In this document: positions 32,549-64,000 of the stretch, one piece after another
How positions within the stretch are numbered: position 1 is the stretch's first letter
How the letters are laid out: every line of letters starts with the position of its first letter
DNA from: Turritopsis dohrnii
Lineage: Eukaryota; Cnidaria; Hydrozoa; Anthoathecata; Oceaniidae
Assembly (NCBI GenBank): GCA_027922465.2
Contig: BQMF02000067.1
Coordinates: 1,137,085-1,201,084, forward strand
Length of the DNA: 64,000 nt
Direction: 5' to 3'
Notes under the pieces: model-generated
Databases searched by the model: none
Told to the model about the DNA's origin: nothing
What the model saw: only the letters and a program-made list of their open reading frames with translations
Program-made: the position numbers and the translations under genes

Positions 32549-35500
32549 ATGGCTCCTGTTGACTTCAACAATTATTGGAGAAATCGTCAGAGTGGTTTCA
32601 TTCTGAAAAGAGAGAAAGTATGTCGTTAATTGTGCCTCCACCTCTCAAGGCTTCGAGCAACTATTAATACTGATTAATGTTTAGACTGCTGACAGGATAT
32701 CGGCGTATCACAAGCGTATTGCAGAAATGCAAAAATGGAAGGATAATCTAAAAAATCAATTCCTCCTATCAATGGATTCATGCCATTTTAGTAAAGAAAA
32801 CGGCAACTATGCTCATCAAAAGAAAGTTTTGAAATTAAAGGATGAAATAAACAAATGGATAAGATACAAGAGTTGGGGATACTGCGAAAAATGTGGCTTG
32901 CTCCACAAGCAAAAGATGCTTCCTTCGTATAGAAGTACAAGAAATATTGTCATTAAAAATAGCCCCTGTGTTGCGAAAAGGTAAATAACAAATTTTTAAG
33001 TCGTTAAAATTAAAAGCTAATCAAAGCAGCTAATAAAAGCTTGATTGTTTTGTTTAGATATGTAGTTCTGTTTCGGAGCACACACAAGAAATGATTTGAT
33101 TTCGAGGCGTATATTTGTAATCTCGATGGATTCAAACTGAATGAAGAAAAATACAAAAGGAAATTAAATATATGATAAAAAGTACATGTGAGTATAATTG
33201 AAAAAGTTTAAGTTGAAAAAATCTAATTGAAAAAGTTTAGTTTGAAAAAATTTCTAAGTCTGAAAAAAGTTCAAAAAGTAAAAAATATTATAAGTCCAAA
33301 TGCTTACCAGCTTGCCAGAATGTGAGTCTGAAAAGAGGGTGTGGCTCCAAAGTGTTGAAAGTTGAATTGAAAAAATTTTGATAGTTGAAAATTATTTGAG
33401 ATATGAGTTAGTTATCAAACTTGAAAATTTGAAAGTTGAGTTGAGAGGCCATCTTGAAATTTGATGTTGACTGCTCAAGATCAAGTTGACAACTGAATGA
33501 CAAACCTAAGAGCTGGTATTTAAAGGCCAAAAAAGCAAAGTGGACATGTAAATTGTAAATAGGGCCTTAAGCAAAGTTGACATACAAATATAAAAATAAA
33601 TAGAGCCTTAGCATATAAACTTGAAAATACTGTCTAAATAGTAAATAGAGCCTTAATTGTGTGAGCTATGAATACAAAAAAGGGATTCTAGAGCAAAGTA
33701 GATATGACCCAAAATGTAAACAAACTGATAATAAGGGCCTGAACACACTGGAACAAAATTTTTAATATAAACACTAGAATTGAAGTTTGTTCAATTTACA
33801 TTCCCCCAGCAGAAAATTCAAAATTTTGTTCATTGTTCGTTTTCCAACATTGAAAATTCTTCCCAAACACTCAATTCGTCCACGGGGTGAATCATTACAA
33901 GACTACGGACTGCTCGATGTGTGACACGATTCACACTTTCATTGTGATTTCGATACTCGACCAGAACTTTTCGAATCTTCCCGTCAGTACTGTATTCCAA
34001 CTGTTTCACCTTTCCGAATTGATACACGTTTGCTATCGGACCGTCTCGTTTCGTGAACAGAACGACATCCCCAACTTTCATGTCACGATCGTTGTGGAAC
34101 CATTTCGGGCGATGCATCAGGTTGGGAACATGGACAGTAAGCCAGACTTCAAACCAGGCATCGAATATCCTCTGGTTAAGTTTAGCAAACTTGTCAGTGT
34201 TGGTTGTCATCTTGACTGGAAATGCAGGACTTCGGTTGTTGTTTCGTCCCATCAAAAGGCGGTTCGGTGTAAGAACATCTGCAACTTCGAATTCTGTGTG
34301 GCTGTTGACTGCTATCGGCATATCATTGATCGTGTTTGCGATTTGGGCAGCAACTGTCTCCCACTGGAGAACTGACAATCTTTCGTTGTGGAAATTTGTA
34401 GTGATGGATTTTCGAACTTCTCGGATCTTCCGCTCCACTTTCCCATGCATGTGATGACCAGCGACAGGACAAACATCAAATTGCACTTGGGCTTGGCAGA
34501 AGAGATGGTTCTGAATGTCGGTGAAGTCAAGACGCATGGTTTCACATCCCTTAACAAGTTGACTTCCTTCATCAGGGAGCAAATATTTCGGGTAACCAAC
34601 GTGACTTGCAAATCTTGTGAATGATAGGATGAAAGATGGCGTGCTGTAATCATCCATAACATTGATTTTTGTTGCTGATGTAGTTGTACAGCAGAATATC
34701 ACAAGCCATATTTTAACGGTAGTTCGCTTGTGAAAATTTGAGTAGGCGTTCAGTGGTCCACATAAATCTACTTGAGTCGAGTAAAATGGTGGTGCTATGT
34801 TGAAATTGTGCCTTGAGACTGGACCCATTTCCACTTCCACAGTCTTCTTTGTGATGTATCGACATCGCTCACAGCGTTTTCTCATCAATTTCACCAATTC
34901 TTTGCCGTCGATGATGTAGGCGACTTGTAAGACATATCTGTACACAGTTTCGACACCGGCATGTTTTGCAACCGGATGTTTCCAATGGATGTGATTGACG
35001 ATACTGAATGCTATTGGTGAGTACCTGTCGATAATGGGCACGAAGAACATGGAAGCTGACAGGTCGATCATGGCTTCGGTTAGTCTTCCGGTAGCAGTGA
35101 CTTCGTTAGACGGCAGTATTCTTCCAACGTAGTAGAGGATTCCATCTTTACATTTGCTGATCTTGTTGTACTTCTTCTCTGGTGTGAACACTTTAACCTC
35201 TTCAGTTGCTTTCGTGAAGAAGTATTTCTCAGCTTGACTGATGGTTTGAGTTGTCAGGTTTGATTTTGACGATCTTTTCAGGCGATTTTTCAGATTATTG
35301 ACAAATTTGATGACGAGTCCCATTATTCGAATGATCTTTGCCCAATCGAATCTGTTCGGGTCGAGGAGATATTGAGAAAATTTGTGTCTTTCCGTGATTG
35401 AGGATAGATGGGCTGATGGTTTTTCCACAGGACATTTGCTTGGTGCTTGTTCGAATTGTGGAAGGATTCTTTCTTTGTTGACGAATGTGATATCTTCTTG

Positions 35501-38500
35501 GTTCAGCTTGATCTTGTCAACGCTTGTTACAGGAAACTTGTCTTCGGTCTCACGCATCCATGGAAGGCCATTATACCACGGAGAATTTTGACCAACATCC
35601 TGGAGGGTAGCACCTCTTCGGGTTCCGATGTCAGCTATCATCTCTTGGCTCCTGACAAACTTCCAGTCTGACGGCTTGGTGAATCTGTGTATCTCAAGAA
35701 CTCTGTTCCGGACCCATGGTTTGAGTTGTTTGTCGCTTCCGTTGATCCAGAACAGAACAATTTGGCTATCGGTTAATTTGAGTGATGATTGGTGATGCTT
35801 TTTGAACGACCGCCTGACAACTTCGCCAGTGTGAGTGTTGAGGGTTGCCGCCAGTAGCTCTGCTCGAGGTTGTGTTGATCCATTTGGTACAAGTCGAGAT
35901 CTGGAGAAAACCAGTTGACATGAGAAGTTTCCAGATTTTCGTTTAAATCTGGCATAGATTGCAACACAAGCGATGTCTTTTGATGCATCTCCTGCGTCGA
36001 TTGTTGTGATTTTGAGATCAACTGCATCTTCAGGTACGATTGCACGATGAAATCTGATTGTCGGGATTTCCTCCATCATTGCAAAGTGCGAATCCCAAAC
36101 AGGTCGGAGGTCATCGGGAATTCTGTCGTCCCAATCTAAACCTCTGTCGACGAGTTGATGCAAGTCCAACTTCATGGCTGCGGTAAGAGGTGTGATTTTG
36201 CCTGTGATATCATACAACTCAGCAACCTTTGATACACATTGGCGACGGGTCAAGTTGGCAGGTACTGTGTTGATGGTTGTAGGTTTCTTCCCTCTGATTT
36301 TCTTAGCGAAATTCAATTCACTGATGTCCAACGAGATTGTGTCTTCTTCGGGGTACCATTTCATCCCAGCTACGTTTATGCTTTTGCCATCTGCAGAAAG
36401 GTCTGGACTCGGCGGTTGATGTGAGAACGTTACTCCTTTGAGCGCAAATCCACCTTTGTTGATTGCAACTTCCAAGTCTTCGGCAAGTTGGATGGCAGCT
36501 TCAGGTGTTTCATCACCACTCAGGACATCATCAACGAAAGTGTCGTTTTCAACTACCTCAGTTGCTTTTGGTGTATCTTCTTTTGACATTTGGGCAGTTT
36601 GTCTCAATGCTCTTTCTGATTGGTTTCCTGATGACTTGACCCCATAGATTAGAGTCATGATCACTTTCTCCTTGGGCAACTTTGATTTGTCCAATTCGTC
36701 TTGCCATATATATCGCTGCAGGCACCAGTGATGTTCGTTCAACTTGACGGAATTATACATTTTCCTCACATCCGTGTGAAAGGCTGTGTGATGTGAGGTC
36801 CAACGAATGAGTATTTCTACGAGACGATTCATGTTGTTTGTTCCCTTCGCGAGAATGTCATTGAGGCTGTACCCGGAACTTGTTGGTTGTGATGCGTCAA
36901 AGACTACGCGACATGGGGTTGAGAGAGAGTTGGTGTTCCACACAGCTCTCCATGGTATGAAATTTTGCACCTTGCTGTTCTGAAGCATCAGTTGTTGTTG
37001 ATGGCTGAGGCTTTCAACGTAGGCAACAAATCCCAAAGATTGCATCTTCTTCTCCGAGGCAATCACATCTTCTTTGTCCTTGGGTTCTTTGTCGAGTTTC
37101 TTTAGCTGCTGATGATATACTTTCAGGGCTTTCTGTTTGTTGTTGGCGAGCTTTACTTCTGGATTGTGAAGAAGTGGGAGATCTGCGTAGCACTGTCTCT
37201 TGTTGATGTCGATGGTTACAGATTTGTTGATAAGGTCTTGTTCCACTTCCTCCTTGATGCTAATGGACTCGGTGGATTCGTTCTCCTTGCAGGTTTTACA
37301 GTCTCTGCAATTGACACATCTGTAATCAATGTTGCTTCCAGCTGCTTCAACGTCTTCGAAAATTTTCTGGTTTCGTGACAGTAATGCTGTGCTGGCTTCT
37401 TCTGGTTGATGATACAGAAGGTCTTGGTTGTGGTCTTTATCGACTTTGATGTGAAGTAGTGCGACGTCAGGATTGGCGAGGATCCCTGCATCGAACATTT
37501 GCTGTTGGTTAGCCAAGAATGACTGCATTGCTTGACTGCTGTGATGATGCTTCGAAATGTTGTTGAACACATGGTGGGGACCCCCAACGACACCTCTTCC
37601 ACCATCTGCGTTGTTGAATGGTGATTCATAAATGGTCAATCCAGATGGCATCTGAAAAATCTCCTTGGGATGGTAACGTAAATACTTGATCCCAAGCATT
37701 ACATCAACGTCTCCTCCGATTGCTGGTGGTAACATGGGTAGACTTGCAGGATCTTTACCAAGTTGACTGTAGGCAAGGTGTATGTCCTTTTGAACTTCAT
37801 TGAGTGGATAGACCGGGAAGGTTGCTGTGATTCGAGGCAGACAAACCCCGGAGAGGTGAGCGTCACGACCATTGGTGAGGGGTAGACGTATGCTGTAGAT
37901 CCCTCGACTTGTGGTCTTCATCTCGCCGATTCCGCCAATCGACACATCTCCTTTAAACTCAAGAGTTGCTCGGTCACCAAAGTAGCTGATTGCTCGCTCT
38001 GAAATTATCATGTTACTGCATCCAAGGTCAAAGAAGATCGTACATCTGCGTTGATTGACGTAGATTGTTTGCAGGATGTAGACTGCGTTATCTTCAATAA
38101 CTGGCTCCTCAGCTGGGTTGGAGTTTGAAGGCTTGATCTTGCTTGTTGAAGCTTTGTGTGATTGAACTTCAGCGTAGAACGACAGTTTGATATCCTTTGC
38201 GAATGCTGGAAGGTCTGCATGTTGAGGGCGTAGGATGCATCTGTCCTTGAAATTTTGGAGAATCCGTTGGTTTTCTTGTGACGTTGCATGCTCCTGACAG
38301 ACTAGAACATGCTTTCGGCATCCGTGACCGTCATGTGATGGGTGAGGGCAGGTGAAGGTTCTCTGGCACCGACCTTCTTTGTGTTTCTCTTGTGAGTACT
38401 TGGCACCAGGGTATAGACACTGACTGCAAAGTCCCTTCTTCTTGAGTGTGCTGAGGCGTTCCGCAGGTGTCATGCCTGCGAAGAATTGACATGAGAAGTA

Positions 38501-41500
38501 TTGTATCAACTTTGATCGATTTGGGCCATTTGTTTTGACGTGACCCGTCTCCCCGCAGATGAAGCATTTTTCTTGGATGTACGGTTGATCTTGATGAACT
38601 TCTGCAGGATGGGCACCGTGTTGACTTCGTGAGTGTTGTGATGAAGATTTGTCGTGGGATGAGCAGTGAAGGAGCTTCTTCTGTTGTACTGAAAGCTCTT
38701 TCTCCAGGAATTTAATGAGTTCTTTCCATGCTTCGGGCTCGCTCAGCTCTTTATCGTCAAGCAAAGCAAACCACCTTGTGATGCGTACATCGTCCAGGAG
38801 TGCGTAAACCTTTTCGATAGCGTCACTGTAATATAGGCGATTTTGGATGCTGTGATCTGCAGCTAACTTCTGTAAGTCTCTCATAAGGTTCAGAATCTTG
38901 CTCAACGTCTCAATCTGCTTCTCTGGATCCCTTGTCTTCCAGATTTTGCTCGTCTGACTTAACTGGGACAGTTTCTTTGTGAGCAGCAGCTTGGCATCAC
39001 CATACGACGCTTTTAAACGACGCCATATCTCCTCAATGGTGTCGACCCCCTTAACAAGCGTGAGGGCCGGACCTTCAAGGAAATTGTTCTTGAGAAGGTC
39101 TGGTAGAAGGGCTGTTGGTGTGGACTTTATATAGAGTTTGTTAAAGTCACTTATGAACGTATAAATGTCACTTGAAGAGTCGTAGCCCTTGAATTTCGAC
39201 AGCTTGATGTTGAGTTTGGTTGCTTCGAAGCTTTGCTGCTTAACGATCTCCTTCTCCTTTATTTCATTTTGGAGACTGTCTGAATAAGTTTGTTTGAGAG
39301 TAACGAGTTTGTCATAGCTGTCGTTGATGGTTTTGATGGCTTCACTGTCCGATTCTTCGTTCTTCATTGTCAGGATGTCCTTCATCTGCTTGGATATGGC
39401 ATTCACCGCTTGTAAATCAGCTTGAAGGTCCTTTTTCGCAAGAATCAGTTCGTCGAAAGTGAAGGTTGTGGGTTTCTGACTGAACTTCTGAGTAAGAGGC
39501 TTCATAGCGTTTTTGACCTCTTTCATCAGGAATGATTGTGATGTGAGTGACAATCGGTTGAGGCGAGTTTGTTTATCAAGTTGCTCCTTGCGCAGTTCCT
39601 TCCGTCTTAATTTGATTTTGATCATGAATTCTCTGATCACGGAAATCGTTTGTTCGTGGAGTTTAACAAACTTCTGCTCGTACTCTTCATGGGGTAAATT
39701 GAGTTCGATTTCTGCATGAGCCGTTCTGAATTTGGTCCTCAATTCCTCAATCTTTATGGTCACTGTTTCGACTTCATCAAGTGTCATGTCCTCAAGATCG
39801 TTTTCCATGATGATGTCTTCGACGTTTCTAGAGGCAATGTTTTGTTGGATGATGAGTATCTTCAATCGTTCGCTCTCCATCTTGATCTCTTCCTCTGTTT
39901 CGTCAAGTCTCCAGTTCTCAACAAGCGTGGAAATTTCGTCTACACCGTCTTCGTTTTCAATTGTGTCCTCGTGTACGTTTTCGTCAGCTCTGTTGATCTG
40001 CTCCTCCGGTATTCTCTCAGCTAATCCTCTTCCGTTTGGCTCCTCCGATTCTCTTCCGTCCGTATCCTTGTCTGTTAATCCGATCCGTTCCCCAGTTGAG
40101 TCCAGTACTGCGTAGTTGATCCTCTCCGTTGTCCTTGTTGATCTACGCATGTAGCATCCAGTGATGGTTGGTTGCTGTTTGAATGTTTCGGAGCACACAC
40201 AAGAAATGATTTGATTTCGAGGCGTATATTTGTAATCTCGATGGATTCAAACTGAATGAAGAAAAATACAAAAGGAAATTAAATATATGATAAAAAGTAC
40301 ATGTGAGTATAATTGAAAAAGTTTAAGTTGAAAAAATCTAATTGAAAAAGTTTAGTTTGAAAAAATTTCTAAGTCTGAAAAAAGTTCAAAAAGTAAAAAA
40401 TATTATAAGTCCAAATGCTTACCAGCTTGCCAGAATGTGAGTCTGAAAAGAGGGTGTGGCTCCAAAGTGTTGAAAGTTGAATTGAAAAAATTTTGATAGT
40501 TGAAAATTATTTGAGATATGAGTTAGTTATCAAACTTGAAAATTTGAAAGTTGAGTTGAGAGGCCATCTTGAAATTTGATGTTGACTGCTCAAGATCAAG
40601 TTGACAACTGAATGACAAACCTAAGAGCTGGTATTTAAAGGCCAAAAAAGCAAAGTGGACATGTAAATTGTAAATAGGGCCTTAAGCAAAGTTGACATAC
40701 AAATATAAAAATAAATAGAGCCTTAGCATATAAACTTGAAAATACTGTCTAAATAGTAAATAGAGCCTTAATTGTGTGAGCTATGAATACAAAAAAGGGA
40801 TTCTAGAGCAAAGTAGATATGACCCAAAATGTAAACAAACTGATAATAAGGGCCTGAACACACTGGAACAAAATTTTTAATATAAACACTAGAATTGAAG
40901 TTTGTTCAATTTACAAGTTCCAAGTCTCAATGACTTTCCACAGGAGTTGAAACATTTGAGTAAAGAACATCAAAGGACATTACGTTTGTTCCAAATAGAC
41001 TCGGGAAAATATCAAACAGCCAAACACGGCTACCGAATAAAAACCGCGGCAATGTGTTTGGTTGTCCCTGATAACTCTGTTCTCGAACGAATAAATGAAA
41101 TTGGGAATATCCCATTGAAAAATAAATTAAAGGCAGCTTTTCAATGGTTGATCTCTTCAAATGATTGTAGTTACAGGTACTTGATGAATTATAAATTTCT
41201 ATTGCCATGTAAACTGAATACAAATCTTGTTTAAATCTTTATTTTTAATAGGTTGTTCTTCGACATTGTCGCTTCATATCAACGAGGATGTAAAATCCCG
41301 TATTATACTTTATTGAGCTGGGAACACATAGAATGTGCCTTATGGCCGATCCTGTACTTCAGAGACGATATGTGCGAGTCTCATAGAGCTGACAATGTTA
41401 AAACCAATACCCAAAAGGCAGCGTTCATTACAAAATGTCTATCCCCTGTGCAAGATTACATGTACGATTTTGAGTTGCTGCAATTTCAGTATGATAGGTG

Positions 41501-45125: not shown

Positions 45126-45171
<46 letters not shown>

Positions 45172-45339
45172 ATTAGTGGGTGAACAATCCAACACTTGGT
45201 GAATTCTGCTTCACAATGATAGGATGAGCCGGCAACGAAGGAATAAAAAAGCAGCGAAGCTATGAACGCTTGGCAGCCACAAGGCAAGGGTGAAAGTAGT
45301 CTTGGGTGGGTGGGTGGGCCAAACCTTAAACGCATTCAC

Positions 45340-51023: not shown

Positions 51024-52590
51024 ATGTCAAGACTACAAAATGATGATGATATAGTTGATGAAGAAGATGCTTTGAGTTTTTTGGACAAGTTATCTGTCTT
51101 ATTATCAGAACTGCAACGAAGATCAGCAGAAAGTGATATTGACATTCTCTTGGAACGAGTAGGTGAAGCACTAACGCACTTATACTTATGCCAATTTAAC
51201 TTTCCTAACAACTCAGCAATTGATGATTTGATAATTCAGTTTCACATATTTCATCAAGAACTCGTTAGGGAAACAAGACAAATAGACTCTTGTGTAGCAA
51301 TTTTCCAATGCCACAGAAAATTGGAACAAACGGTTGGTCCTGGTCGTCCAAGGTGTTATGTCCCAGAAGAAACTCTGATTTATTTTAAGGGGTTAGGTTG
51401 CACTTGGAATGATATCGCCAATTTACTGTTAGTATCACGTTGGACCATTCGAAGAAGAGTAGTTGAGTTTGGTTTAGAAGATGTAGTTGGTTTTTCAACA
51501 ATAAGTGACGATGAGTTAGATACTTTGATATCGTCCTATCGTCAAACTCACGGTTTAGCAGTTGGTAGATCATTAATTTCTGGTCATCTACGATCAGTTG
51601 GAATCTGAGTTCAGCAACGCCGTGTGACTGCTTCTCTTCGACGTGTGGATCCGGAAGGATGTAGAATGCGTTGGTCTTTAGTTATAAAAAGGAAGAAGTA
51701 TAGCGTTCCAGCACCAAATAGTCTGTGGCACATTGATGGCCACCACAGTTTGGTGAGTTGGGGTTTCGTTATACATGGATGTGTCTATGGCTTTTCTCGG
51801 TTAATAATTTATCTCAGATGTGCCACGAATAATTATGCTATGACTGTGGATTCCTTATTCGAAGAAGCTATCAACACTTATGGCATTCCTTCCAGAGTTC
51901 GTACCGATAAAGGCGGAGAGAATACTTTAGTTTGGGAAAAAATGACATTGTTACGAGGTGAACATCGTGGAAGTTACCTAGCTGGGTCTTCTGTTCACAA
52001 TCAGCGTATAGAAAGATTATGGAGGGATGTATGGAGTTATGTTTGTAATAACTTTTACTATACATTCCAAGCGATGGAATCTCAAGGTAAGATCAATATT
52101 TTTCAATGAAAAAGATCACTTCAAAATGCTAAACATGGCGTTTATATTTTATTTCGAAGGAATTTTGGACGTTTCCGATCAAATACAAAAGTTTGTCCTG
52201 CACTATATATACGTTCCCAGAATTAATAACGTCATAAAAAGTTTTGTTGCAGCATGGAACAACCACCCTTTGAGGACGGAAAGAAACTGGACACCTGAAA
52301 GAATCTGGGCAAACGGAATAATAGACAGAAGAAACCGCTCTATCGGACATGTTGCAGAAATTCATATGATCGAAGAATCACTTGATGACCTGGAATGGTT
52401 TGGCATGGACTGGCATGCGCCTGCTCCAAACGATGATGGGCTATCTACAGTCGCAGTATCTGATGTTAGCAATCCGTTAAGTAACGAGCAGTTATCTGCA
52501 CTACGTTCATCAATTAACCCATTATCAGAATCTACGCAATTTGGAATAGAATTATTCCTTTCAGCTATGGAAATCATTAATGACAGCTGA
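51024..52590 (+). CDS. DDE integrase-type transposase with one in-frame TGA
   Basis: Related to the integrase at the window start. Exon 51024 to about 52089 and exon 52160-52590 join in frame (donor CAAG/GTAAGA, acceptor TTCGAAG). The N-terminal region is helical, with a HTH-like stretch (IANLLLVSRWTIRRRVVEFG). The core has D in LWHIDGHHSL, D in RTDKGGEN and E in NQRIERLWRD. The C-terminus includes AAWNNHPLRTERNWTPERIW and NPLSESTQFGIELF, as in full-length relatives. The only damage seen is a TGA at 51606-51608, where relatives have Arg; a CGA to TGA change would explain it. The gene is divergent from the RING gene and faces a HECT C-lobe. Confidence 0.8.
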
Positions 52591-53145: not shown

Positions 53146-53619
53146 TCAAACTGCATTAAATGCAATAGGGTGGTTTGCAAGCACGCTCTTAAAAGAAAGT
53201 TTAAAATCTTCATATGATTCAAAGACATCTGGGCATTCCAGTTTAAACGAACAAGTGCTTACATAAAATCCAGACCTCTTTGTAAATCGAACATCAATCT
53301 TTTGACGAAGGATGTAGCCACCACCAGTTAAAAAAATCACTAGCTTTCTCCTGGTATCCTCTTCTTCAGTAACAAAGCGCATAAAAAAATCTTTCAGCAC
53401 TGGTTTACCCAATTCCGGAAACGAAAGCATTCCTATCACTGACTCTGAAGATATTTCTTGTCCAATGAAAAGTTTACTGTAGAAGTCTGGGTGTTTTTGC
53501 ATTTCTCCAAGAACACCTAATGTCTCTAACCCTCTTTTAAATTGATCAAGCATTACCTTAGGTTTGTTGAATAGGAAATGAACCATAATGCCTTGAGTAA
53601 TGAGAATTCGATTTTTCTC
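53146..53619 (-). pseudogene. HECT E3 ligase C-terminal exon, N-terminal part missing
   Basis: One exon with a good acceptor (TTTTTTCTACAG) ends in a stop at 53146. It codes for the last part of a HECT domain: FVTEEEDTRRKLVIFLTGGG, then the catalytic-Cys region VSTCSFKLECP and a SYEDFKLSFKSVL tail. This tail is the kind that the HECT gene at 1.6 kb has lost or altered. I could not find the N-lobe exon upstream between 53.6 and 58 kb, so the gene is incomplete or cut by the Rep/transposase element. It converges on the integrase, repeating the pair at 0-3.8 kb. Confidence 0.75.
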
Positions 53620-54850
53620 CTGTAGAAAAAATAAGCAAACCAATTTTAACTTTGTGAAACGTTATGAATTTTGAGTTACATTCACAAGGTTTTACCGACA
53701 ACAATACTAAGTTGACTGTAACTACTATGTGAATTACAATTACATACAGGTGGAAAACTTTCGTGTAACTTTTCTCAAAGTTATCATTAAAAACAGAGTT
53801 TAAATGATCAGTTTTATGATAATAATATAATTGAAGGTGTTGTAAATATTAGATAGAACAGAACAGACTTTCAAATATATATATAATTGTTTTCGTTGAT
53901 AAGAATCATAACATGGTTGTTTAAAGTGTACTTCATTCTACGTGTTTTTAGTTTGATAAAAAAGAAAAACAACAACAAAAGATTGGAAAGTATTCCTTTC
54001 ACGCAAAGGAATAAAAAATACAGAGATCTGATCATCATGAAGTAATTTCATTGTTTCACAAACCACTAATGTTGAAAAAACATCATTTATATAGTATATA
54101 TACTTACAGAAGCTACAACCCTCCACGAAATATATTGGGAAAACTTTAAAAAATGGTTTTAAAAGGGAAAATGCCCCTGCAAGTGGAGATGACAGGTCCC
54201 CCCTGCCCCCAAATTCAATGTTGTTTATGTTGAAAGACAACAGAATGTTTCTGGGGTGAAGATAAGCAGTTGGGGGCCTTGCAGCACTTCATACAACATT
54301 GAGATCAGGGGGAAGGGGTTTTTCCCAAATATTTTGTGGGGGCTTGTCTGAATTCAAAAAAACAAATAAACAGAGGTTTACCTACAAAATATTAAAAAGA
54401 ATTCCAAATGTTGCTTTCCAATAACACACAGGCACTTAATAAAGACTTAATAGCTCCAAGACAGATCCACATGGCCACATGGATGGCAGCCATATTTATT
54501 TTCATGTGATGAACCACAGCAAAGCTGACATAGGGGATTGCAGACAGTATTATTAAAAAAGATAAACAAATGTTTATACCATCAAATTTGAGATGTTACT
54601 GTATCCCATATAAGTTTAAAAAGGTCATGCATGTCACTTGCCACATGGTTGACAGCCATATTGAATTTTTCACACCTTTGCATTTGTGATCTGTCACATG
54701 AAAACAAACAAAGTTTTGGAGGGAATTTCAAATTCTACAAAACTCTTGAGCTGTTACAAGTGAAAAATTGCAAGTGTTATAAGATAGAAATAGTCATAAC
54801 TGTACAAGTACTTACTACAAGTAAAAATAATATAAACAGAAGAAATACCT
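53620..54850. other. Non-coding stretch between HECT exon and Rep element
   Basis: No HECT exon, RNA gene or terminal repeat recognised. Short frames on both strands lack known motifs. Confidence 0.45.
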
Positions 54851-54912
54851 ATCATATATTTGTAAACAAAACTTTAAGTAAATAACGTAAACAAAACCTA
54901 AAATAAAACAAA

Positions 54913-56265
54913 ATGAATGACTCGCAAGAAGACTTCCAAGCAGACAAATGTTATAAACCTCGTCGTACATACCTCGTAACTTATAGTCAGGCTGACCGTG
55001 ACAAATTCGCCAGTCGAGAAAGTTTTGGTCAGGTAGTTCAGAGTGCGTTCGACACAACTGGAAAGAGCAAATCTACTGTGGAGTACTGGGCTTGTGCCCT
55101 GGAACCACATGTTGAACATGGCGAACACTATCATGTGTCCTTAAAATTAAGTGGACCACGTAGATGGAACGCAGTCAGAAATAATTTGAATGTGACTCAT
55201 GGCATAAATGTGAACTTTTCGAACAGGCATGAAAATTATTATACTGCGTATAAATACGTTACGAAATATGATCAACATGTATTTCACAGTACCACCCACC
55301 CAAATTTGAAAGAGATTGGCTCTCCAAAAACAAAACAGTGCATGAAAGCATACAAACAAAAACATAAACAAAACAATAACGATGCTTCGACCTCAAGTCA
55401 GCCAAAGACCAAGACTCGAAGACTTTCTAATCTTGATGTCGGAGAGTTTTTGGTGGAAAACAACATCAAAACCGACATCGAGCTTTTCGCTTTAGCCAAA
55501 CAGCAAAAGGAGGCTGGTAAAAAGGAATTGGCCAACTTTGTTTTGTCACGTAGCAGTAAGTCACTGCAGGAACTCATTACAAGCACGTGGAGAATGGAGA
55601 CAGCAGATGCCTGTTTGGCTCGTAAGAAGAAGTCGAGGATGGAATTAGTGAGAGAACGTGCACAGGGTGATTGCGTTCCTGGTTGCACGGGTGAATGGTT
55701 TACGTGTGCAGATGAAGTCCTTCGACAAAATAAGGTCCATCCAGTGGTTTTTGCCACTGCGATGCGTGAATTGTTGACGAAAGGTCGTGGCAAAAACCGA
55801 AATGTCATGATTGTTGGACCAGCTAACTGTGCCAAAACATTCCTGTTCAGGCCGTTAGAATTTTTGTTCTCATGTTTCATTAATCCGTCTAATGATAAGT
55901 ACGCGTGGATTGTCGTCGAAAATGCTGAAGTCATCTTTCTTAACGATTTCCGATGGAATAAGGAGATGATTGCGTGGAAAGAGCTGTTGTTGCTGTTGGA
56001 AGGACAGACTGTGCATTTGCCATCACCAAAGAATCATTATGCAGCTGATCTGTGTATATCGAGTGACGTGCCAGTGGTGGCTACAGGAAAGGCACGCATT
56101 ACATACCAAGGTCCGTACAACACCAGCGACAGCATCGAGAATGATATGATGGCAGCGAGATGGTGTGTATTTGACTTTTTCAAACAAATACCTGTAGACG
56201 AGCAGAAAGAAATGGTTCCGTGTGGCAAATGTTTTGCAGACCTGGTTCTTCTGGGAGAACTATAA
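54913..56265 (+). CDS. Rolling-circle replication initiator (HUH endonuclease + SF3 helicase), 450 aa
   Basis: Rep protein of the CRESS/parvovirus-like type. It nicks one strand at an origin, stays bound through a tyrosine and unwinds DNA. Residues about 19-28 (TYLVTYSQAD) fit Rep motif I. EHYHVSLKL (71-79) is the HUH metal site. AYKYVTKYD (112-120) holds the catalytic Tyr and Lys (YxxK). After a basic linker (about 145-170) comes an SF3 helicase with Walker A GPANCAKT (302-309), Walker B-like WIVVENAEVIFLNDF (332-346) and a downstream VVATGKARI strand. In Walker A an Ala stands where many relatives have Gly. The length suits a full Rep; no stop or intron is seen. Either a domesticated viral gene or part of an element with the facing transposase and iterons. 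Confidence 0.85.
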   Translation: MNDSQEDFQADKCYKPRRTYLVTYSQADRDKFASRESFGQVVQSAFDTTGKSKSTVEYWACALEPHVEHGEHYHVSLKLSGPRRWNAVRNNLNVTHGINVNFSNRHENYYTAYKYVTKYDQHVFHSTTHPNLKEIGSPKTKQCMKAYKQKHKQNNNDASTSSQPKTKTRRLSNLDVGEFLVENNIKTDIELFALAKQQKEAGKKELANFVLSRSSKSLQELITSTWRMETADACLARKKKSRMELVRERAQGDCVPGCTGEWFTCADEVLRQNKVHPVVFATAMRELLTKGRGKNRNVMIVGPANCAKTFLFRPLEFLFSCFINPSNDKYAWIVVENAEVIFLNDFRWNKEMIAWKELLLLLEGQTVHLPSPKNHYAADLCISSDVPVVATGKARITYQGPYNTSDSIENDMMAARWCVFDFFKQIPVDEQKEMVPCGKCFADLVLLGEL

Positions 56266-56293
56266 GTTCTTTTTTAATTAGTAATATCATTTT

Positions 56294-56529
56294 ACACGTT
56301 ACACACACGTTACACTCACGTTACACACACGTTACACTTTGATCTGATAAGAAATCTATAGAGAATTTCACACGTTACACACGTTACACCATTTTTTTTT
56401 ATAAAAAGAGATATGTTTGTTTTTTTAAAAAGTTGATGTAACGTGTGTAACGTGTTCCAAAACAAAGTATTTTAGTGGAAAGTCAACCAAAATACAAATG
56501 TAACGTGTGTGTAACGTGTGTAACGTGTG
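56294..56529. promoter_or_regulatory. Iteron cluster: 8-bp CGTTACAC repeats in both orientations, possible Rep origin
   Basis: CGTTACAC occurs on the plus strand at 56297, 56308, 56319 and 56330, spaced exactly 11 bp, and again at 56373 and 56382. The reverse complement GTGTAACG lies at 56445, 56509 and 56518, with one-mismatch copies at 56436 and 56498. The two sets face each other around an AT-rich centre (56390-56432), so the whole can fold or bind protein symmetrically. Iterons next to a rep gene are the usual Rep-binding sites. Its place between two gene 3' ends is unlike a promoter. Confidence 0.7.
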
Positions 56530-56853
56530 AAACACTTCTGTTTACTTCTGTTTTTATTTTTGTTACATCACATTTTGTTTCGTTTGAGCCATCCTACACT
56601 GACAAGAAGTCCTAAGAAGCAGTCGTAACTAAACGCAAGTCCATAAACAAAATGTAAACAAAGCGTATGACATACATAATATACAAGGCAGCGACTTAAA
56701 CTGCACTTCAAGAGACCACAACTGTTTCTCAACGGAAGTATTAGCTTTGAGCGATTAATAAATACGATTGTTTTGATGATGAGATATTCCGCGCAAGACA
56801 TCAACCTTGTATTTCATTCTCCGCGGTGTAGTGCAGTTTATTTCTGCTGCCTT

Positions 56854-57954
56854 CTAATATTTGATACGTTTTCCTTTGGCTTGTATAATCATATCTACCC
56901 GTTTATACATACTTTCTATAGTTTTGTTTATATAATTGATGGGCACATTACGAAGACATAGTTTAACACGAGCCGAAAACATTTCGAAACTTTCAAAAGT
57001 TATATTTTCTGTAAGAGCCTGTTCATGTAGCTTATCTTTTACGTAATTAAAAACATTTTCTATAGGATTTAAATCAGGACTTCTTGCTGGTATATCAAAC
57101 TTAAATGCACCTACTTCAGCGAGTGCCTCTCTGGCAGCCTTACTGTTCTGACTAGGATCCCCATCTTGCAAAAACATTCGTGTTTGTGGGTTTCCACATC
57201 TCTCAAGTGTTGACGGGAAATGGTCTTTTATAAACTTCCCAAACTTTTGACCATTTATTCGATCGAAATACTGTTCACACAGGACTACCCCTCTACTATA
57301 ACTAATCCCAACCATGAAGTGTGCAACCCGACCACCAGAACCAACATGACTACCTTTAGCTGTGCATTTCGGCTCAAGCCCTTCGTCTTTTTTACGCCAT
57401 GCCATTGTCCTGCACGACTTGGCTTCGTCGAGGGGATTGTACTTGTGTTGGAACCCAGCACCGTCAAGGTAGAAAGCGATTTTGTTCTTCCAAAAGTCCA
57501 TGTCTCCCTCTCTTTTGATTTTTCTGCAGAATTCGGAGCGGCATTTCAAGTCTTTCGCTGTCAGCAGGCCTTTCTTTCGAGAATGATAATATTTGTAACC
57601 TTCGCTGTGCAAAAATCGACGGACAGTTTCGTCGTGTAAGTCTTTTTGTATGTCAGCAGCTACACGGAGTTTCTTTACGGTGAATGCACCAACACCATCT
57701 CGCAACTTCGGTATTTCACGAATGAGAGCACGCTTATCTCTTTCAGTCAGTTTGGGTGGACGTCCCTTGTTGTTGTGTCGCTTGTCGTGATCTTCGCCTG
57801 ACAGAATAGCCTTCTTACAATGTCGATAAATAGTTGACGACGAATACATTGGGTACATCTTGCAAAGTTCTTTTCCTGACATGTTCCTGTCCTGATGCAG
57901 ATATCTTAAGTGTATAGACACTTCTAAAGGAATTTTTCTATATGCTTTTTTCAT
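56854..57954 (-). CDS. Tc1/mariner-type transposase, DD34E, 366 aa, intact
   Basis: Cut-and-paste transposase. The N-terminus has two helix-turn-helix segments (about 1-50 and 70-125) around a basic GRPPKLTERDKRALIRE linker. The catalytic acids are D164 (FYLDGAGF), D264 (FLQDGDPSQN) and E299 (RSPDLNPIENVFNYV), with 34 residues between the last two, so DD34E. The length is normal and the frame has no stop. The sequence between D164 and D264 is longer than in many Tc1 proteins and rich in Gly/Cys (KGSHVGSGGRVAHFMVG). It faces the Rep gene. The start ATG at 57954 is followed at once by a plausible KKAYRKIPLE N-terminus. Confidence 0.9.
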   Translation of the reverse strand: MKKAYRKIPLEVSIHLRYLHQDRNMSGKELCKMYPMYSSSTIYRHCKKAILSGEDHDKRHNNKGRPPKLTERDKRALIREIPKLRDGVGAFTVKKLRVAADIQKDLHDETVRRFLHSEGYKYYHSRKKGLLTAKDLKCRSEFCRKIKREGDMDFWKNKIAFYLDGAGFQHKYNPLDEAKSCRTMAWRKKDEGLEPKCTAKGSHVGSGGRVAHFMVGISYSRGVVLCEQYFDRINGQKFGKFIKDHFPSTLERCGNPQTRMFLQDGDPSQNSKAAREALAEVGAFKFDIPARSPDLNPIENVFNYVKDKLHEQALTENITFESFEMFSARVKLCLRNVPINYINKTIESMYKRVDMIIQAKGKRIKY

Positions 57955-58239
57955 CTAAAGGGGGGAAATATCAAACTGCTAACTTGTTTTGTTTACATTT
58001 ATATAAAAGTGTGGCAGCTTGAGAAAATTCCGAGAAAATTCTGGGATGCCGTAAAAAAAGTTTCCCTATTAAATCAAAAAAACAAAATATCTGTCCACCA
58101 AAGCGAAAATGAAAACTGAAAAACAGCGACAATTTTTTCCAACTACTTTGGAAATGTAGCAAAGGACCTCAAATCTAAGCTTACTTCGATTATAGATTAT
58201 GTATGGAGAAAAATACCAATACACAGAAAAACAAGATAT

Positions 58240-58790
58240 TTGTCGAAAAACATCTGAGACCCTTAATCTAAATAAATCAACGGGATTGGACGAGCTGCCA
58301 CCGGGAATGATCAAAGACTGTGCTACCACTTGCCTTTATTATCAACTTATCAATCATTTCCAGTGAATTTCCAACTATGTTGATAAAGGCAAAAATAATA
58401 CTAATACACAAAAGTGAGGATGCTAAACCAGAAAACTATTGACCCATCTCTATCTTGCCAATATTTTCAAATATCATCGAGCGAGCTGTCCATAGCCAAT
58501 TACTGGACTATTTGGAGAAAAATTAACTTTTGTCTGACTGTCAATTTGGGTACCCAAATCACTGTTCACCGAAACTTGCTTCCACCATCCTGCTCGATGA
58601 CATCCAAAAATTTATTGACAATGGACAATTGGTTGGAGCTGTTTACATCAATTTAACAAAAGCTTTTGAGTCAATAGGACATGGTTCATTATTGCACAAA
58701 TTACAGGAGTATGGTATAAATGGACAGTAATTAGAGTGGTTCACCAATTATTTACTCAACAGAAGTCAAACAGTTTCCAATGACAATGAA
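58240..58790 (+). pseudogene. LINE reverse-transcriptase remnant
   Basis: Translated in shifting frames: LNKSTGLDELPPGMIKDCA, then a degraded RPISILPIFSNI-like piece, then SDCQFGYPNHCSPKLAST, DDIQKFIDNGQLVGAVYINL and TKAFESIGHGSLLHKL. The order is that of CR1/Jockey-type RTs. Many stops and shifts; the active-site part is absent. Confidence 0.75.
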
Positions 58791-58890
58791 CGGGAGTTAT
58801 AAATACTTAAAAGTATATTCGTTCAAGGTCAGTCTGAGGTAGTTATTTTAGAAATATGAATTCAAAATTAGCTAATATTTTCATACATGT

Positions 58891-59600
58891 ATGCTAGTAT
58901 CCCGGGTAAACATTTTTACCCTGTTTAACTTCGAAAAGGATGTGTCAAATTCCGCATTCCCCCGTGACGAAAATTTTAATTACAGAATCGCTACTCGAAA
59001 GTGTACCCATGTTGTAGGGCTTGAAAAACTTGTTAAAAAAGTGTATAGAATCATTTCGCCTCGATCCACCATTGCAGAGATATCGTCGATCAAAGATTTT
59101 GATGACGTCATATCCGCAGTACCAAATAAAATTTAAACCAAAATGTTGCCCAAAAAAAACGTCAGTTATCCTTGTTGGTTCTTGAGGTATTTTCCTAAAA
59201 ACGTCGCGTTCCATTGGAGATGCAATGTAATGGTTCCCCGTGATTATAAAAAAAACTGACGTCAAATGATGCCACATGCTTTTGGAATAATCATGAAAAA
59301 AGTGTCTCTCGCATCTACGTGGTTTTACGCGCACATAAGAGGACGATGACCGTAAATTTAAACTAAATATATCACTCTCTAAAATAAAAGTGGGATGCAC
59401 AACGCGGATTATTATAATAAGATTTACAGTTAAAAGTATTACAATTTCTTGCAGCCATCGTCATTTCTATGGTGGAAGCAACACATTTATACCCCCTAAA
59501 TGTTTAAGTTCTCTTCGCTCTCTCCGTTGCAGATCCTCGATTTCTTTCGAAGTTCAATCTATCATTTTGCATGACAGACAAGCAAACAGAGAATTGGGTA
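58891..59600 (+). repeat. Dispersed repeat copy (CTAGTATCCCG family), short form
   Basis: Starts GCTAGTATCCCGGGTAAACA and contains CACTCTCTAAAATAAAAGTG with GCGGATTATTATAATAAG near 59375-59423. It runs on to GAATTGGGTATTAATATATA, the same 3' end as the CTAGCCGCC family. It is followed without a gap by a CTAGCCGCC copy. Confidence 0.65.
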
Positions 59601-59610
59601 TTAATATATA

Positions 59611-60060
59611 GACTAGCCGCCAAGGCGGCCCCGCTTGCCGCCCATGTTCAGCCTGCACTGTGTCACCACCCGCTCCAAATTATTGCACTTAAAACCAGTG
59701 ATAAGCGAGGGACGTATAATGGGAGAACTGAGGTTCAGTTCTAATGATTTTCACTTCCTTTGCTGCTGGCTTTATCGCTTAATAAAGCTTGTTTGCACAT
59801 GAAGACAAATTCGTTCCTGGTGTTTCAAATCTTGCATGGTCTTAACTCAGCCGTTCATTGTTGCATTTAAATTATCAGCAAACTTTCTTGCTTTACACAA
59901 TGCATTCCGAACGTGAACTTCATGTGACAATTTTAAACCAATCAAATATCAGTTTAAACAATGGTTCCTAAAAAACTGTATTTCATGATGTGCTATTTAT
60001 TTACTTTTTAAAACCAATCGATTATCGGTTTTAACAATACAGATTATCAGTTTAACAATT
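59611..60060 (+). repeat. Dispersed repeat copy (CTAGCCGCCAAG family), truncated
   Basis: Starts ACTAGCCGCCAAGGCGGCCC and follows the 19367 copy for about 350 bases (CACTTAAAACCAG, AATGCATTCCGAACGTGAAC), then diverges. Confidence 0.65.
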
Positions 60061-60090
60061 CTTATCAATAATTATTAATGAGGAAATATA

Positions 60091-61007
60091 CCGGGTGGGC
60101 CAAAAAAACTCCCCTAAAATTAAAAATAAGAATTCCCTACTGAAAAGAAAAAATCAACTCTCATTTTTCTCTATACTGAAACTGACATGTAATTATGATA
60201 GTTAAAGGAAATTTTATGTGAAATTGTGAAAATCTTGTAAGGTTACAGATATTTTCATGGACCACTGCAAATTATGAATGTCCTAAAATCATAAAAAAAC
60301 TGTTGTCAGAAATCTTATATACACCCTCTATTCTAAAGAGGTTTCTGTTTTGTTTATACTTATACAAGTTCCTTTTGCAATGCAAAGTCTTATGTATGTT
60401 GTATTGCAAAAAAAAACAAAAACAGTTGGTTCCAGATCCGTATTTTGAAACAACAAGAAGCGTACGGCACAGAAAAAAAACACGAAATAATGGTTCTTTC
60501 AAAAGACAAAATCATCATTCAAAATGGTTATGAAGAAAAAAGCTGGTCGGCCTACAAAATTTGAAAAAACAATGGTTCAATGGAAAGACGGCCTAGCTCA
60601 GGGCGGCCGGTAACCAAAACCACAGAAGAAAACATGAACCTAATTGAAGAGTTCATTGAGTCCCAGGAAGAGAAACCCCACACGCATTTAAACAAGGGAG
60701 ATGTATCAAGATGCTCTTCGGTTAAGAATTGTATTCTAATTAACATTGAATTGTAGATCAGGTATTAAAATGACATTTGGCTTGCCTCATTTTTGACATC
60801 ACTATCACCTTTTCGTACAGACCTGTTTTTGGAGGTTTTAACAAAATATTTATATCTTTAAAAATCTTCAATGTTTTGACTTGAAATTTGTCAACAAATT
60901 CCAAAACGTGTTCAATTTTACGGTCTAAAAAATCTACGCATTAAAATCCTTTTTTAAGAAAGTTGTTGTTATCAAAATGTTAGGGGCACTTTATTTGGCC
61001 CACCTGG
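60091..61007 (+). mobile_element. Mariner-like element, 0.92 kb, deleted
   Basis: Imperfect TIRs CCGGGTGGGCCAAAAAAACT and, in complement, CCAGGTGGGCCAAATAAAGT are flanked by TA at 60089-60090 and 61008-61009. Inside, near 60570-60740, a frame reads MERRPSSGRPVTKTTEEN and LIEEFIESQEE, the linker and second helix-turn-helix of a transposase. The catalytic half is missing. Confidence 0.75.
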
Positions 61008-61265
61008 TATTGTTGTTGAGACGGGGGTAAAACATTTGAAATACTTAACAATAGCAATTACAACCTTGATCTTTGGCGGCGTGAATACAGGAATCAAGCA
61101 TTTTTCAACTGGCGTGAATTTTTCTATAGTTTTGTTGATAATCATTGTCAGGGAAATCAAGTAGGACTTATGGATCCTTTGTGAATCATGCATGTAATCA
61201 ATTTATTGATTTTCATTAACAAACTATTTTAACAATTTTTTTGAATGCCATTAATATATATATAC

Positions 61266-63590
61266 TAGTATCCCGGGTAAAAACTTTTTACCGAACTTAA
61301 CTTTGAAAACATTAGGTCAAATCTGCCATTCCTGTGGTACGTACGCGTCACTCGCCACCCATGTTCAGTATGCGTTGTGTCACAGAAGTTAACTTGTGTA
61401 AAAGTTTCTTTTCAGGCATTAATTTGTTATTACATTCAGAAGATTAAAAACAGAAACAAATAGCAACATGGCTCAGAATAATATATTTATACGCAGAAGA
61501 GAAGTAACTTTAATGTAAAAAAAATGGCAATATATAACACAGAACTGTTTACCCAGACATACGAAACCAAACATTGAATAACATTACAAAATGTGAATTG
61601 AAAACAAATTGATACCTTCTAACTGTGTTTCTTTCGTGCGGAAGTTACATTATACAGCAACCATTAATGAATTTTTGAAATGATATATAGTCTGTTCTTC
61701 CCAAAACCATCAACGTCATGATTAAAACCATGAGTTTCAATTCTTTATGCTTTTTTTATTATTACCTAAAAAATTAATACTTGAATTGTAATACCGAAAA
61801 CCTAATCATGCTATAAGAATATTGAAATAAACAACAACAACAACAACAAAAAAAAATGCAATTCAACTACGCATTTATCCTAAAAACAATAACTCAAAAC
61901 ACAAAACACCGTAATAGTAATTGTAATACTGTAATACCGAAAACCTAATCATGCTATAAGAATATTGAAATAAACAACAACAACAAAAGTGAAATTCAAC
62001 TACGCATTTATCCTTAAAACAAAAATTTACCCAGAAGATAAAAAGTCACAAATAAAATCATAATGCCAAACTTATATATATACCCAGGTACGTAAACGAT
62101 TACCATAACACAAAATAATGCATAAACATTTCATTGCACAGAACTTCTTAAATACATAATCCATTCACATCTACCTTATGAATAATAATTAAAAACACAA
62201 ACGTGATGACAGAATTTATATCTAAAGAGTTTATAAAAAATTGAAAACAACCACATTTTTAATCTGAGTTAAAATCTCCTCTGGCTAATTCACAACAGTT
62301 AAACAACCCTTTATTCTTATTTATCCAGCATACCAACTGTGTTATAACTAAATAGATTTATACTATTTTAACTTTAGCTGAACTTTAAACAAAATGGGAT
62401 ACCTTTCACTGCCAATTCACATGTTAGTAAACTAAACAGCATTGATCATCTTCTGTAGACATTTTCAAACACTTCTAAACTCTTTACTTCTATATTCATA
62501 CCTATAAACAAATTACTAATACTTTATTTACTTTCCAGCACAAACATACATAGGTATTTATAAAACACTTTCGCTACCATTTTTTTTTAAGTGAAATACA
62601 TAAAACTGCTCTCTTCGTTTGGAAAAACTGCTAAACTTTCTGTATTTTCCAGTAGATTTTGTACTTTTTGGCAGGCAGACAAAAGCATCAAGCATCGATA
62701 TAAATTAGATACAATAGATACAATCAGACAGCATAACACATTCCCCACTTCCACAGCGTCATGAGAAATAAAAATTCATAGCTGTAGGACCATTTTTAAT
62801 GTAATAATAGCGCGCGTTACCAAAACAAATTTCTCTCGGCTTCTTTTCATCCAGCAGCATATACACATTCTAAACGACAGAATAACTGAGACATCCACTC
62901 AAAGCTAAATCAATTAATCTTTCAAAACTAAATTAAAACCATTCCTTACTGTGTAAATAAACATGAAACTGCATTTCTCCACTGCACTTTCTTCTGTATA
63001 GCGATATTTGATAACTAAAACGTAAACAAACATTTAAAAACCTGTTCTTTTATTAATCTAAAATATTAAACAATAAAAGTCTTATCGTTCTGCACAGCCA
63101 ATTTTTAAAAACTTCACTGCACTTCTTCTGTATATCTAAATATGATTTTTCATTGTAAACAAACGATAATAAAACGTTTCATAATAATGACAATACCTTC
63201 GTGCATACAAACCTGTGTTCCTTCGTCAGTTCTTTCGTCGATTTGCTGCCTAAAACAATCAAATTTAAATTAAAATATTCGTATACAAAAAGAAACACGT
63301 CTTCTTCGCGAAGTTTCTTGCTCACGAAATGATCGTTGACAAATTTTGAACGATTAACATTGCATTGCTCGCACTCCTCCAAAGACGTTTTTCGGCTGAT
63401 TTCCACTGCGCAAACCAAAAATAACAAAACGGAGGAGCATATACTAATCGCGGAAAATCAAAAAAAGTGTCTCGCTTCGTGGTTTTACGACGAAAAGGGA
63501 AAAAATAAGAAGGATTTGACCGTGAAAAAAACAAATATGTCACTCTCTAAAATAAAAGTGGGATGCACAATCGCGGATTATTATAATAAG
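61266..63590 (+). repeat. Dispersed repeat copy (CTAGTATCCCG family), long form
   Basis: Starts CTAGTATCCCGGGTAAAAAC, with GGTAAAAACTTTTTACC as a near-terminal hairpin. It ends CACTCTCTAAAATAAAAGTG, GCACAATCGCGGATTATTA, TAATAAG. A block around TACCGAAAACCTAATCATGC is duplicated inside (about 61793 and 61931). Non-coding. Candidate ORFs at 63.2-63.6 kb overlap this repeat end and are not supported. Confidence 0.7.
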
Positions 63591-63629
63591 ATTAATTGTG
63601 ACTGTCCAGGGGATTTTGATAACAAACCA

Positions 63630-63785
63630 TAAAACATTTTTCAAAAAACGTTAAAAACGATAATTAAACAATGGAAGAAAATGTTAAAAAACGTTTTTAT
63701 GAAAAAGTAAAAACGTTTTTATGGAAACGATAAAATGTTACAAAATTCGAAAGCAAAAACGTTAAAAATGTTTTTTGTTTAAAAA
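63630..63785. repeat. Short scattered AAAACGTTTTTA repeats
   Basis: AACGTTAAAAACG and AAAACGTTTTTATG motifs occur about six times in 150 bases, several self-complementary. No gene; the rest of the window to 64000 shows nothing I can name. Confidence 0.6.
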
Positions 63786-64000
63786 GATTACTTGTTTTGC
63801 CTCCGCAATACAGATAAACTTTGAATAATAACTTTTATGCTACCTAGGAAACCTGTTTAAATTTTATTAATACTAACAATAATAATAATAACAAGAATGC
63901 CTAAAGTGTGATACGAATTATGTTTCAAAGTATTTATGTTTTTGTATTTTTCTGAGACATGCGACCTTCAATCAGAGCTACTTGGAAAAGAACGGGTTTA

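Follow-up and report, generated by a model that had tools for sequence, protein, structure and literature searches.

The window analysed here is a stretch of 64,000 nucleotides at the end of contig C67 (BQMF02000067.1, assembly GCA_027922465.2) of the hydrozoan Turritopsis dohrnii. It carries two convergent genes, one for a rolling-circle-type replication initiator (Rep) and the other for a DD34E transposase, with an array of short repeated words (iterons) between their 3' ends. Both open reading frames (ORFs), of 450 and 366 amino acids, are free of interruptions. As the data below indicate, the two genes belong to one transposon family with long terminal direct repeats (DRs), which is present in many copies in this genome.

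Rep contains the residues HYH (72-74), YVTK (115-118), GPANCAKT (from 302) and EVIFLNDF (from 339), which correspond to motifs of the HUH, Walker A and Walker B types; the motif residues are invariant or nearly so across 26 aligned sequences. The predicted fold (mean predicted local distance difference test score, pLDDT, 86) is similar, in residues 12-130, to the endonuclease domains of geminivirus Rep proteins and, in residues 164-450, to the helicases of adeno-associated virus (AAV) Rep and papillomavirus E1. By its motifs and predicted fold, Rep is an HUH endonuclease fused to a superfamily 3 (SF3) helicase, as are the initiators of circular Rep-encoding single-stranded (CRESS) DNA viruses and of parvoviruses. 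By sequence, all Pfam matches of Rep were under the cut-off, PHROGs gave nothing useful, and the best PDB hit had an E value of 0.15. Scanning of viral contigs with Rep and then with alignment A1 resulted in 1 and 47 pattern matches, respectively, and 0 confirmed relatives. In the T. dohrnii genome (436 Mb, 891 contigs), at least 101 matches to Rep were found with identities from 100 down to 28%, and the reading frame is still open in several of the diverged copies.

The transposase has the Pfam domains HTH_Tnp_Tc3_2 (PF01498) and DDE_3 (PF13358), both over the cut-off, and matches the Sleeping Beauty transposase (2.5e-12). Its catalytic residues are presumably D164, D264 and E299 (positions taken from the Sleeping Beauty alignment), with a D264-E299 spacing of 34 residues. 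The type of DDE transposase and its helix-turn-helix domain place the protein in the Tc1/mariner-IS630 group. At least 125 matches were present in the host genome. In five transposase relatives (C30, C202, C542, C575, C649) the reading frame is longer, at 433-440 amino acids, the identity is 36-45%, and no Rep was detected nearby; perhaps they represent a sister family without Rep, or one from which Rep has been lost.

The two genes recur together. A convergent transposase lies within 1.5 kb of Rep in 28 of the 30 best Rep loci (L001-L030; note that these are not independent, as four come from a single array and there are near-duplicates among the others). In the two exceptions the transposase is ~8 kb further downstream (L012) or beyond the fetched flank (L014). 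When all matches were merged into clusters (same strand, <800 bp apart), 46 of 69 Rep clusters of any size had a convergent transposase within 2 kb. For Rep clusters of at least 800 bp, this was the case in 43 of 51 within 2 kb and in 46 of 51 within 10 kb; for transposase clusters of at least 800 bp, a convergent Rep was found in 39 of 57 within 2 kb and in 42 of 57 within 10 kb. Outside the usual pairs there are a same-strand fragment pair (C19:233662-234691) and a convergent pair on C128 slightly more than 2 kb apart. Furthermore, the pairwise distances of Rep and of the transposase agree (Mantel r 0.94, p 1e-4; 78 pairs from 13 lineages, retained from 28 loci after removal of those at <5% Rep distance from a retained one), and both genes have therefore descended together. 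The preliminary description of this DNA, made from the letters alone, had reported an intact HUH-SF3 Rep converging with an intact Tc1/mariner-type transposase on an inverted iteron cluster and had proposed that they form one mobile element; this proposal stands, since the pair recurs together with iterons and is enclosed by common ends (see below). It had also named independent occurrence of the genes, with a neighbourhood unique to this locus, as the refuting case: the pair is not unique to the locus, but a minority of each gene does occur alone.

The pair seems to be common in other sequenced samples as well. A protein database search (E 0.001) retrieved 382 Rep and 1508 transposase relatives, of which the best 120 each were used; among these Rep relatives, the octocoral Paramuricea clavata is represented by a hypothetical protein with 52% identity. 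Contigs of equal size occurred in both lists in 13 cases at ≥3 kb (mean 0.96, maximum 5 for 200 offsets) and in 4 cases at ≥10 kb (0.005 for offsets). Protein distances on equal-sized contigs were correlated as well (r 0.62, p 2e-4, n=11 of the 13 pairs; size 4093, with two transposase candidates, was dropped). Of the 120 Rep-bearing contigs, 35 are 4000-4999 bp long and none falls in 5000-5249, as assemblies of unit length would give. The best identities were 62% for Rep and 69% for the transposase, and the database relatives are therefore not near-identical copies from the T. dohrnii genome. Equal contig size is indirect evidence for co-location, albeit hard to explain otherwise.

To define the ends, 16 extended copies were compared (13 of L001-L030 lengthened on the transposase side, plus C820, C423 and C19). 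A complete copy has the structure DR-body-DR with full-length DRs of 184-246 bp and a unit size of 3.7-4.5 kb. A DR pair brackets both genes in 11 of the 16 copies (L009, L010, L015, L016, L020, L022, L027, L028, C820, C19 and L011, the left DR of the last being truncated), and the two DRs within a copy are 97-100% identical by local alignment. Each DR is an imperfect palindrome of the form ACAA...TTGT. In the eight DRs analysed, the first 30 bases agree at 20-24 positions with the reverse complement of the DR's own other end, and the hairpin energies (calculated with RNA parameters) were 5 to 12 standard deviations under those of 60 shuffles (z -5.0 for the C820 DR, -8.9 to -12.2 for the others). 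Because each DR has inverted ends, a complete copy is bounded by outermost arms that are inverted relative to each other, and the element thus has the terminal inverted repeats of the Tc1/mariner-IS630 group. All eight folded DRs (C820, C19, L010, L016, L022 and L027 among them) share an inner, C-rich/G-rich hairpin arm next to CAATGTTG/CAACATTG, though the rest of the sequence differs; this inner arm (C-runs with CAATGTTG) is perhaps an inner site for the transposase.

In the window, similarity to the copies on C423, C820 and C156 (L023) begins at 54106-54113, because the 233-bp sequence of C820 corresponding to window positions 54115-54347 stands directly repeated at both ends. Compared with the complete C820 copy, the window copy is truncated on the right: after 58012 it lacks ~285 bp as well as the right DR (Table 1). 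In C423, no right DR was found up to 16 kb beyond. The element had initially been delimited at 54855..58003; these limits have to be revised, as the left end is at 54114-54115, outside of them, and the right end is truncated after 58012. The same 12-mer had been noticed inverted just outside both gene starts, and TGTAAACAAAAC is indeed present in exact form at 54861 (+) and 57986 (-). As element ends these 12-mers were rejected, lying inward of the left DR that forms the actual left end; alignment of whole copies, which had been suggested for finding the ends, revealed the direct repeats enclosing both genes rather than the 12-mer. The 7-base core of TGTAAACAAAAC is located within 100 bp of both gene starts in 3 of the 16 copies, all of the window family; counted separately, 9 of the 16 copies have it near the Rep start, irrespective of orientation, and 3 have it near the transposase start. 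As a separate observation, window positions 54106-64000 (contig end) match C423 over 9.9 kb at 99.5%, and the left flanks diverge exactly at the DR edge; a chimeric contig end, a rearranged allele or a larger moved block could each account for this difference.

Table 1. Features of the element copy in the window (positions refer to the whole stretch).
Feature	Position	Strand	Evidence
Expected left target-site TA, CTA(G) context	54114..54115	.	Edge nCT/ACAA
Left DR, imperfect palindrome, 233 bp	54115..54347	+	99% identical to both C820 DRs
Non-coding, DR to Rep; starts CTGAA like the inner left DR edge elsewhere	54348..54912	+	Copy comparison
Rep, HUH endonuclease + superfamily 3 helicase, 450 aa, intact	54913..56265	+	ORF, motifs, predicted fold
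Inverted iteron cluster (CACGTTACAC + variants) around AT-rich loop; presumed replication origin	56290..56532	.	Word counts, layout
Tc1/IS630-type DD34E transposase, 366 aa, intact	56854..57954	-	ORF, Pfam, Sleeping Beauty match
Transposase-upstream region, start only; C820 similarity ends at 58012	57955..58012	-	Copy comparison

The insertion edges are uniform. The left outer edge is nCT/ACAA in all 20 tallied copies, the window copy included, and the right outer edge is TTGT/AGn in 18 of 19 (L016 has AA). Note that the tally was made by hand: it omits the decayed left edges found in L015 and L062, the truncated one of L011 and the right edges of L009 (outside its alignment) and L015 (AG), lacks the left edges of L019 and L026, and counts C595/C582, which have the same flanks, once. 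Multimer ends outside the tally are concordant (left, L069 and L074; right, L070 and L072; the L069 flank is that of L057). The inner DR edges are TTGT/CTGA and TCAG/ACAA in clear copies; L056 and L073, beside an insert, deviate on the right. The outer edges fit a TA duplication at a putative CTAG target, a tetranucleotide accounting for 82 of the 4681 NTAN sites in the window. CTAG is also the preferred target of IS630. A natural hint of such a target may be seen in L011, where part of the left DR is lost: an uninterrupted CTAGTTTTTCTATTTT is present on the left, and TA-GTTTTTCTATTTT follows the right end.

Besides monomers, the genome contains multimers, solo repeats and short forms. C19 carries five head-to-tail units of ~4.06 kb with one DR between neighbours and a sixth DR closing the array, the outermost edges being CT and AG; Rep is broken in one of the five units. 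A genome search with the DR alone gave 347 candidates, of which 40 were scored. Some DRs had no neighbour within this set of 40; single DRs with both outer edges are L058, L061, L063, L065 and L066, in addition to L060 with an internal shift. The 40 also included arrays of short units on C635, C761 and C127 (step of ~1.9 kb) and on C175 (1.9 and 3.0 kb). The array units L054, L056 and L057 and the monomer L055 have no Rep match and only fragments, mostly N-terminal, of the transposase; they retain the DR with ~0.3 kb adjacent to it on the left, the right-hand end and, inverted, the intergenic region, and the three array units (1.9 and 3.0 kb) possess 11-12 iteron octamers. In L056 (C175:685150-688600), ~1.1 kb of extra DNA lies beside the DR in a unit of 3030 bp, and the 3030-bp step occurs twice running. 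The DR at 691314 (L073) has the same odd left flank as L056, and the units were therefore copied after the insertion.

The word CACGTTACAC occurs nine times in the window, in both orientations and exclusively at 56295-56527 (0.06 expected from shuffles), which bears out the inverted iteron cluster reported initially. In 14 intergenic regions from six lineages inspected by eye, the iterons flank an AT-rich loop, with inverted copies opposite. The word differs between lineages: ACACGTTACAC in the window family, ACGCGTTACC in C19/L008/L009, ACACGTCACCA in L010, ATGCGTCGC in L016, CATGTCACACC in L019 and CATGTTACACC in L022. The array is damaged in L026 and L027, and the words are fewer and degenerate in L015/L016/L020/L028. 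In geminiviruses, iterons are likewise lineage-specific on a constant plan, and Rep and iterons co-evolve.

Among known systems, the closest in architecture is KolobokP (Kojima and Bao 2022, PMC9587614). In the part of that work compared here, it is described as an element of animal hosts with a body between long DRs with inverted ends and with a second enzyme beside a DDD/E transposase, and it forms solo repeats and multimers of the type (LTDR-INT)n-LTDR. All of its forms (LTDR-INT-LTDR, solo LTDR, multimers) are present in the T. dohrnii element. However, KolobokP encodes a Kolobok-superfamily transposase and a His-Me finger or homing endonuclease (PMC9587614), whereas the T. dohrnii element has a Tc1/IS630 DD34E transposase, an HUH-SF3 Rep with iterons, DRs of 184-246 bp and, apparently, a TA in CTAG as target; in six elements, no ORF >88 amino acids was found besides the two genes and the frames antisense to them. 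The geminivirus-like transposon of the truffle Tuber melanosporum (Liu et al. 2011, PMC3198968) is likewise a eukaryotic repeat family with a Rep-like ORF and transposase ORFs. It differs in that the host is a fungus, the Rep belongs to the geminivirus clade, the ORFs are interrupted, there are two transposase ORFs whose class is not named, and the terminal inverted repeats measure 37 bp, with no obvious target duplication; an iteron array, direct repeats and multimers are not described in the part of that paper compared (PMC3198968).

With Tc1/mariner (IS630) elements, the T. dohrnii element shares the HTH_Tnp_Tc3_2 and DDE_3 domains, the DD34E triad, the probable TA target, the inverted outer ends and the miniature derivatives. 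Ordinary Tc1/mariner elements consist of one gene between inverted repeats, whereas in our element a palindrome repeated in direct orientation forms both ends, a second gene is present and multimers are formed. With the replicons of CRESS-DNA viruses, parvoviruses and papillomaviruses it has in common the combination of HUH endonuclease and SF3 helicase and the size of ~4 kb. Iterons at a hairpin, as viruses of the CRESS/parvo type have them, are a further similarity. In contrast to them, the element encodes a transposase and is integrated with a target preference; no capsid gene was seen, and six elements have no space for a capsid ORF outside the two genes, antisense frames of up to 178 amino acids being unsearched. 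Helitrons and Replitrons are eukaryotic HUH transposons that are not known to use a DDE transposase, and Helitrons possess an SF1-type helicase and 5'-TC...CTRR-3' ends. Membership in the Helitrons was rejected, as the helicase fold is of the SF3 type, a DDE transposase is present and the ends differ. Polintons are self-replicating by means of a protein-primed polymerase and have a retroviral-type integrase, and single-stranded DNA phages with DDE transposases exist in prokaryotes. Coral CMITEs likewise occur in tandem arrays, although their link is to piggyBac (PMC2872659), parvo-like contigs are reported from a sea anemone (PMC6085071), and DENSOV_HM (Repbase), an NS-like repeat of Hydra, is mentioned in PMC3198968. 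In the open-access literature we found no combination of Rep with a Tc1-type transposase in the same architecture, PMC3198968 and PMC9587614 coming closest. The element is real and conserved and, within the reach of these searches, undescribed in that literature; its architecture and gene content would make it a variant form among the transposons of the Tc1/mariner type and the composite-like ones.

The ends, gene content, multimers, solo DRs, iterons and their retention are directly visible in the copies. The multimers, the solo DRs and the iterons kept in Rep-less units suggest, in line with the preliminary description, that the transposase excises the element and that Rep copies it as a circle. 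We thus consider it probable that the window copy is a right-truncated autonomous transposon of the Tc1/mariner-IS630 group with long DRs and its own Rep and iterons, in which Rep copies a circle and the transposase inserts the product. Recombination between DRs, or replication itself, would yield a circle that comprises a single body and a single DR. Rep would bind the iterons, nick there and copy the circle in a rolling-circle-type mode, giving head-to-tail concatemers. The transposase would recognise DR edges, excise any DR-to-DR span, DR-(body-DR)n, and insert it at TA in CTAG. For the transposase, a one-DR circle would be only a solo DR; copying into a multimer would restore the transposable DR-body-DR. 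This circle-copying model would account for the single shared DR in multimers, the single pair of outer edges, the solo DRs and the iterons in Rep-less array units. We give an even chance to the further idea that the element represents a self-replicating class of eukaryotic transposon, in which concatemers alone offer two DRs to the DDE transposase, so that copying would precede and license insertion; the element would then be a circular replicon as well as a cut-and-paste transposon, and might persist as a plasmid-like circle.

Several observations weigh against the circle-copying model. One or both DRs are absent in 5 of the 16 extended copies (L008, L012, L019, L026, C423); no convergent Rep was detected within 2 kb of 18 of the 57 transposase clusters, several of which are the relatives with longer frames named above, and 8 of the 51 Rep clusters (all ≥800 bp) lack a transposase within this distance; the Rep-less monomer L055 is down to 5 iteron octamers; the intergenic array is presumed to be the origin by analogy; and unequal crossover between DRs can yield multimers as well. 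In an alternative reading, the element is a composite-like transposon: the transposase moves everything, DR recombination generates multimers and solo DRs, and Rep is a passenger or has another role. Monomers, multimers and solo repeats of this kind are formed by KolobokP although it has no Rep; unequal crossover or circle integration is proposed by its authors as the source of the multimers, in a pathway that they call unknown (PMC9587614). The DR steps of 1.9, 3.0 and 3.0 kb on C175, together with the extra DNA in L056, are also what repeated crossover would give. Against it, Rep has diverged in parallel with the transposase to ~40-50% identity and keeps open frames in several diverged copies, and the iteron words follow lineage and persist in Rep-less array units; we regard this alternative as unlikely.

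The element could also be a single-stranded DNA virus lineage (CRESS or parvovirus-like) that acquired a transposase for integration and survives as proviruses. The Rep fold, similar to geminivirus and parvovirus/papillomavirus initiators, and the unit size would suit such a lineage. Against it, six elements contain no ORF of ≥80 amino acids beyond the two genes and antisense frames save for two of 84 and 88 amino acids, not compared with capsids; the viral contig scans gave no confirmed relative, and the existence of solo and Rep-less forms is the behaviour of a transposon family; we regard this reading as improbable. The strong DR hairpins and the AAV-like helicase might instead suggest a linear replicon with hairpin telomeres, copied by a rolling-hairpin mechanism, in which the DRs would correspond to the terminal repeats of parvoviruses. 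In rolling-hairpin replication, however, the units of the intermediates are joined head-to-head or tail-to-tail (PMC3087758), whereas our DR pairs are direct and the multimers head-to-tail with one shared DR; moreover, the iterons lie between the genes, outside the DR, and an inverted DR pair was not found in six copies searched on both strands (the wider DR-pair search covered direct pairs only), which renders this mode likewise improbable. Finally, the window taken alone is compatible with two unrelated elements that are neighbours by chance. The recurrence of the pair, the DRs enclosing both genes, the Mantel agreement and the equal-sized contig pairs rule out this explanation for practical purposes.

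Further features were noticed elsewhere in the window. A 2106-amino acid ORF at 33830-40150 (-) with Peptidase_A17 (Pao retrotransposon peptidase) and DUF5641 domains encodes a BEL/Pao-type polyprotein, and the GC content of this stretch is 0.44-0.46 vs. 0.32-0.35 in the adjoining DNA. A Mutator-like transposase (PF20700) is located at 16481-17464 (-), and two ORFs with an rva_4 integrase-core domain at 86-1045 and 51666-52109 (+); the minus-strand ORFs near them (1705-2274 and 53146-53586) appear similar on visual inspection. The 157 bp at 45132-45288 (-) are a fragment of eukaryotic large-subunit ribosomal RNA (Rfam RF02543).

The long-lived animal element described here unites a rolling-circle initiator and a DDE transposase. 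It would provide a concrete explanation of how composite-like DNA transposons keep producing multimers, and its iteron words, which differ between lineages, are a ready set for tests of origin recognition. Moreover, some Rep-like genes of animals that are otherwise read as endogenous viruses may be such elements.

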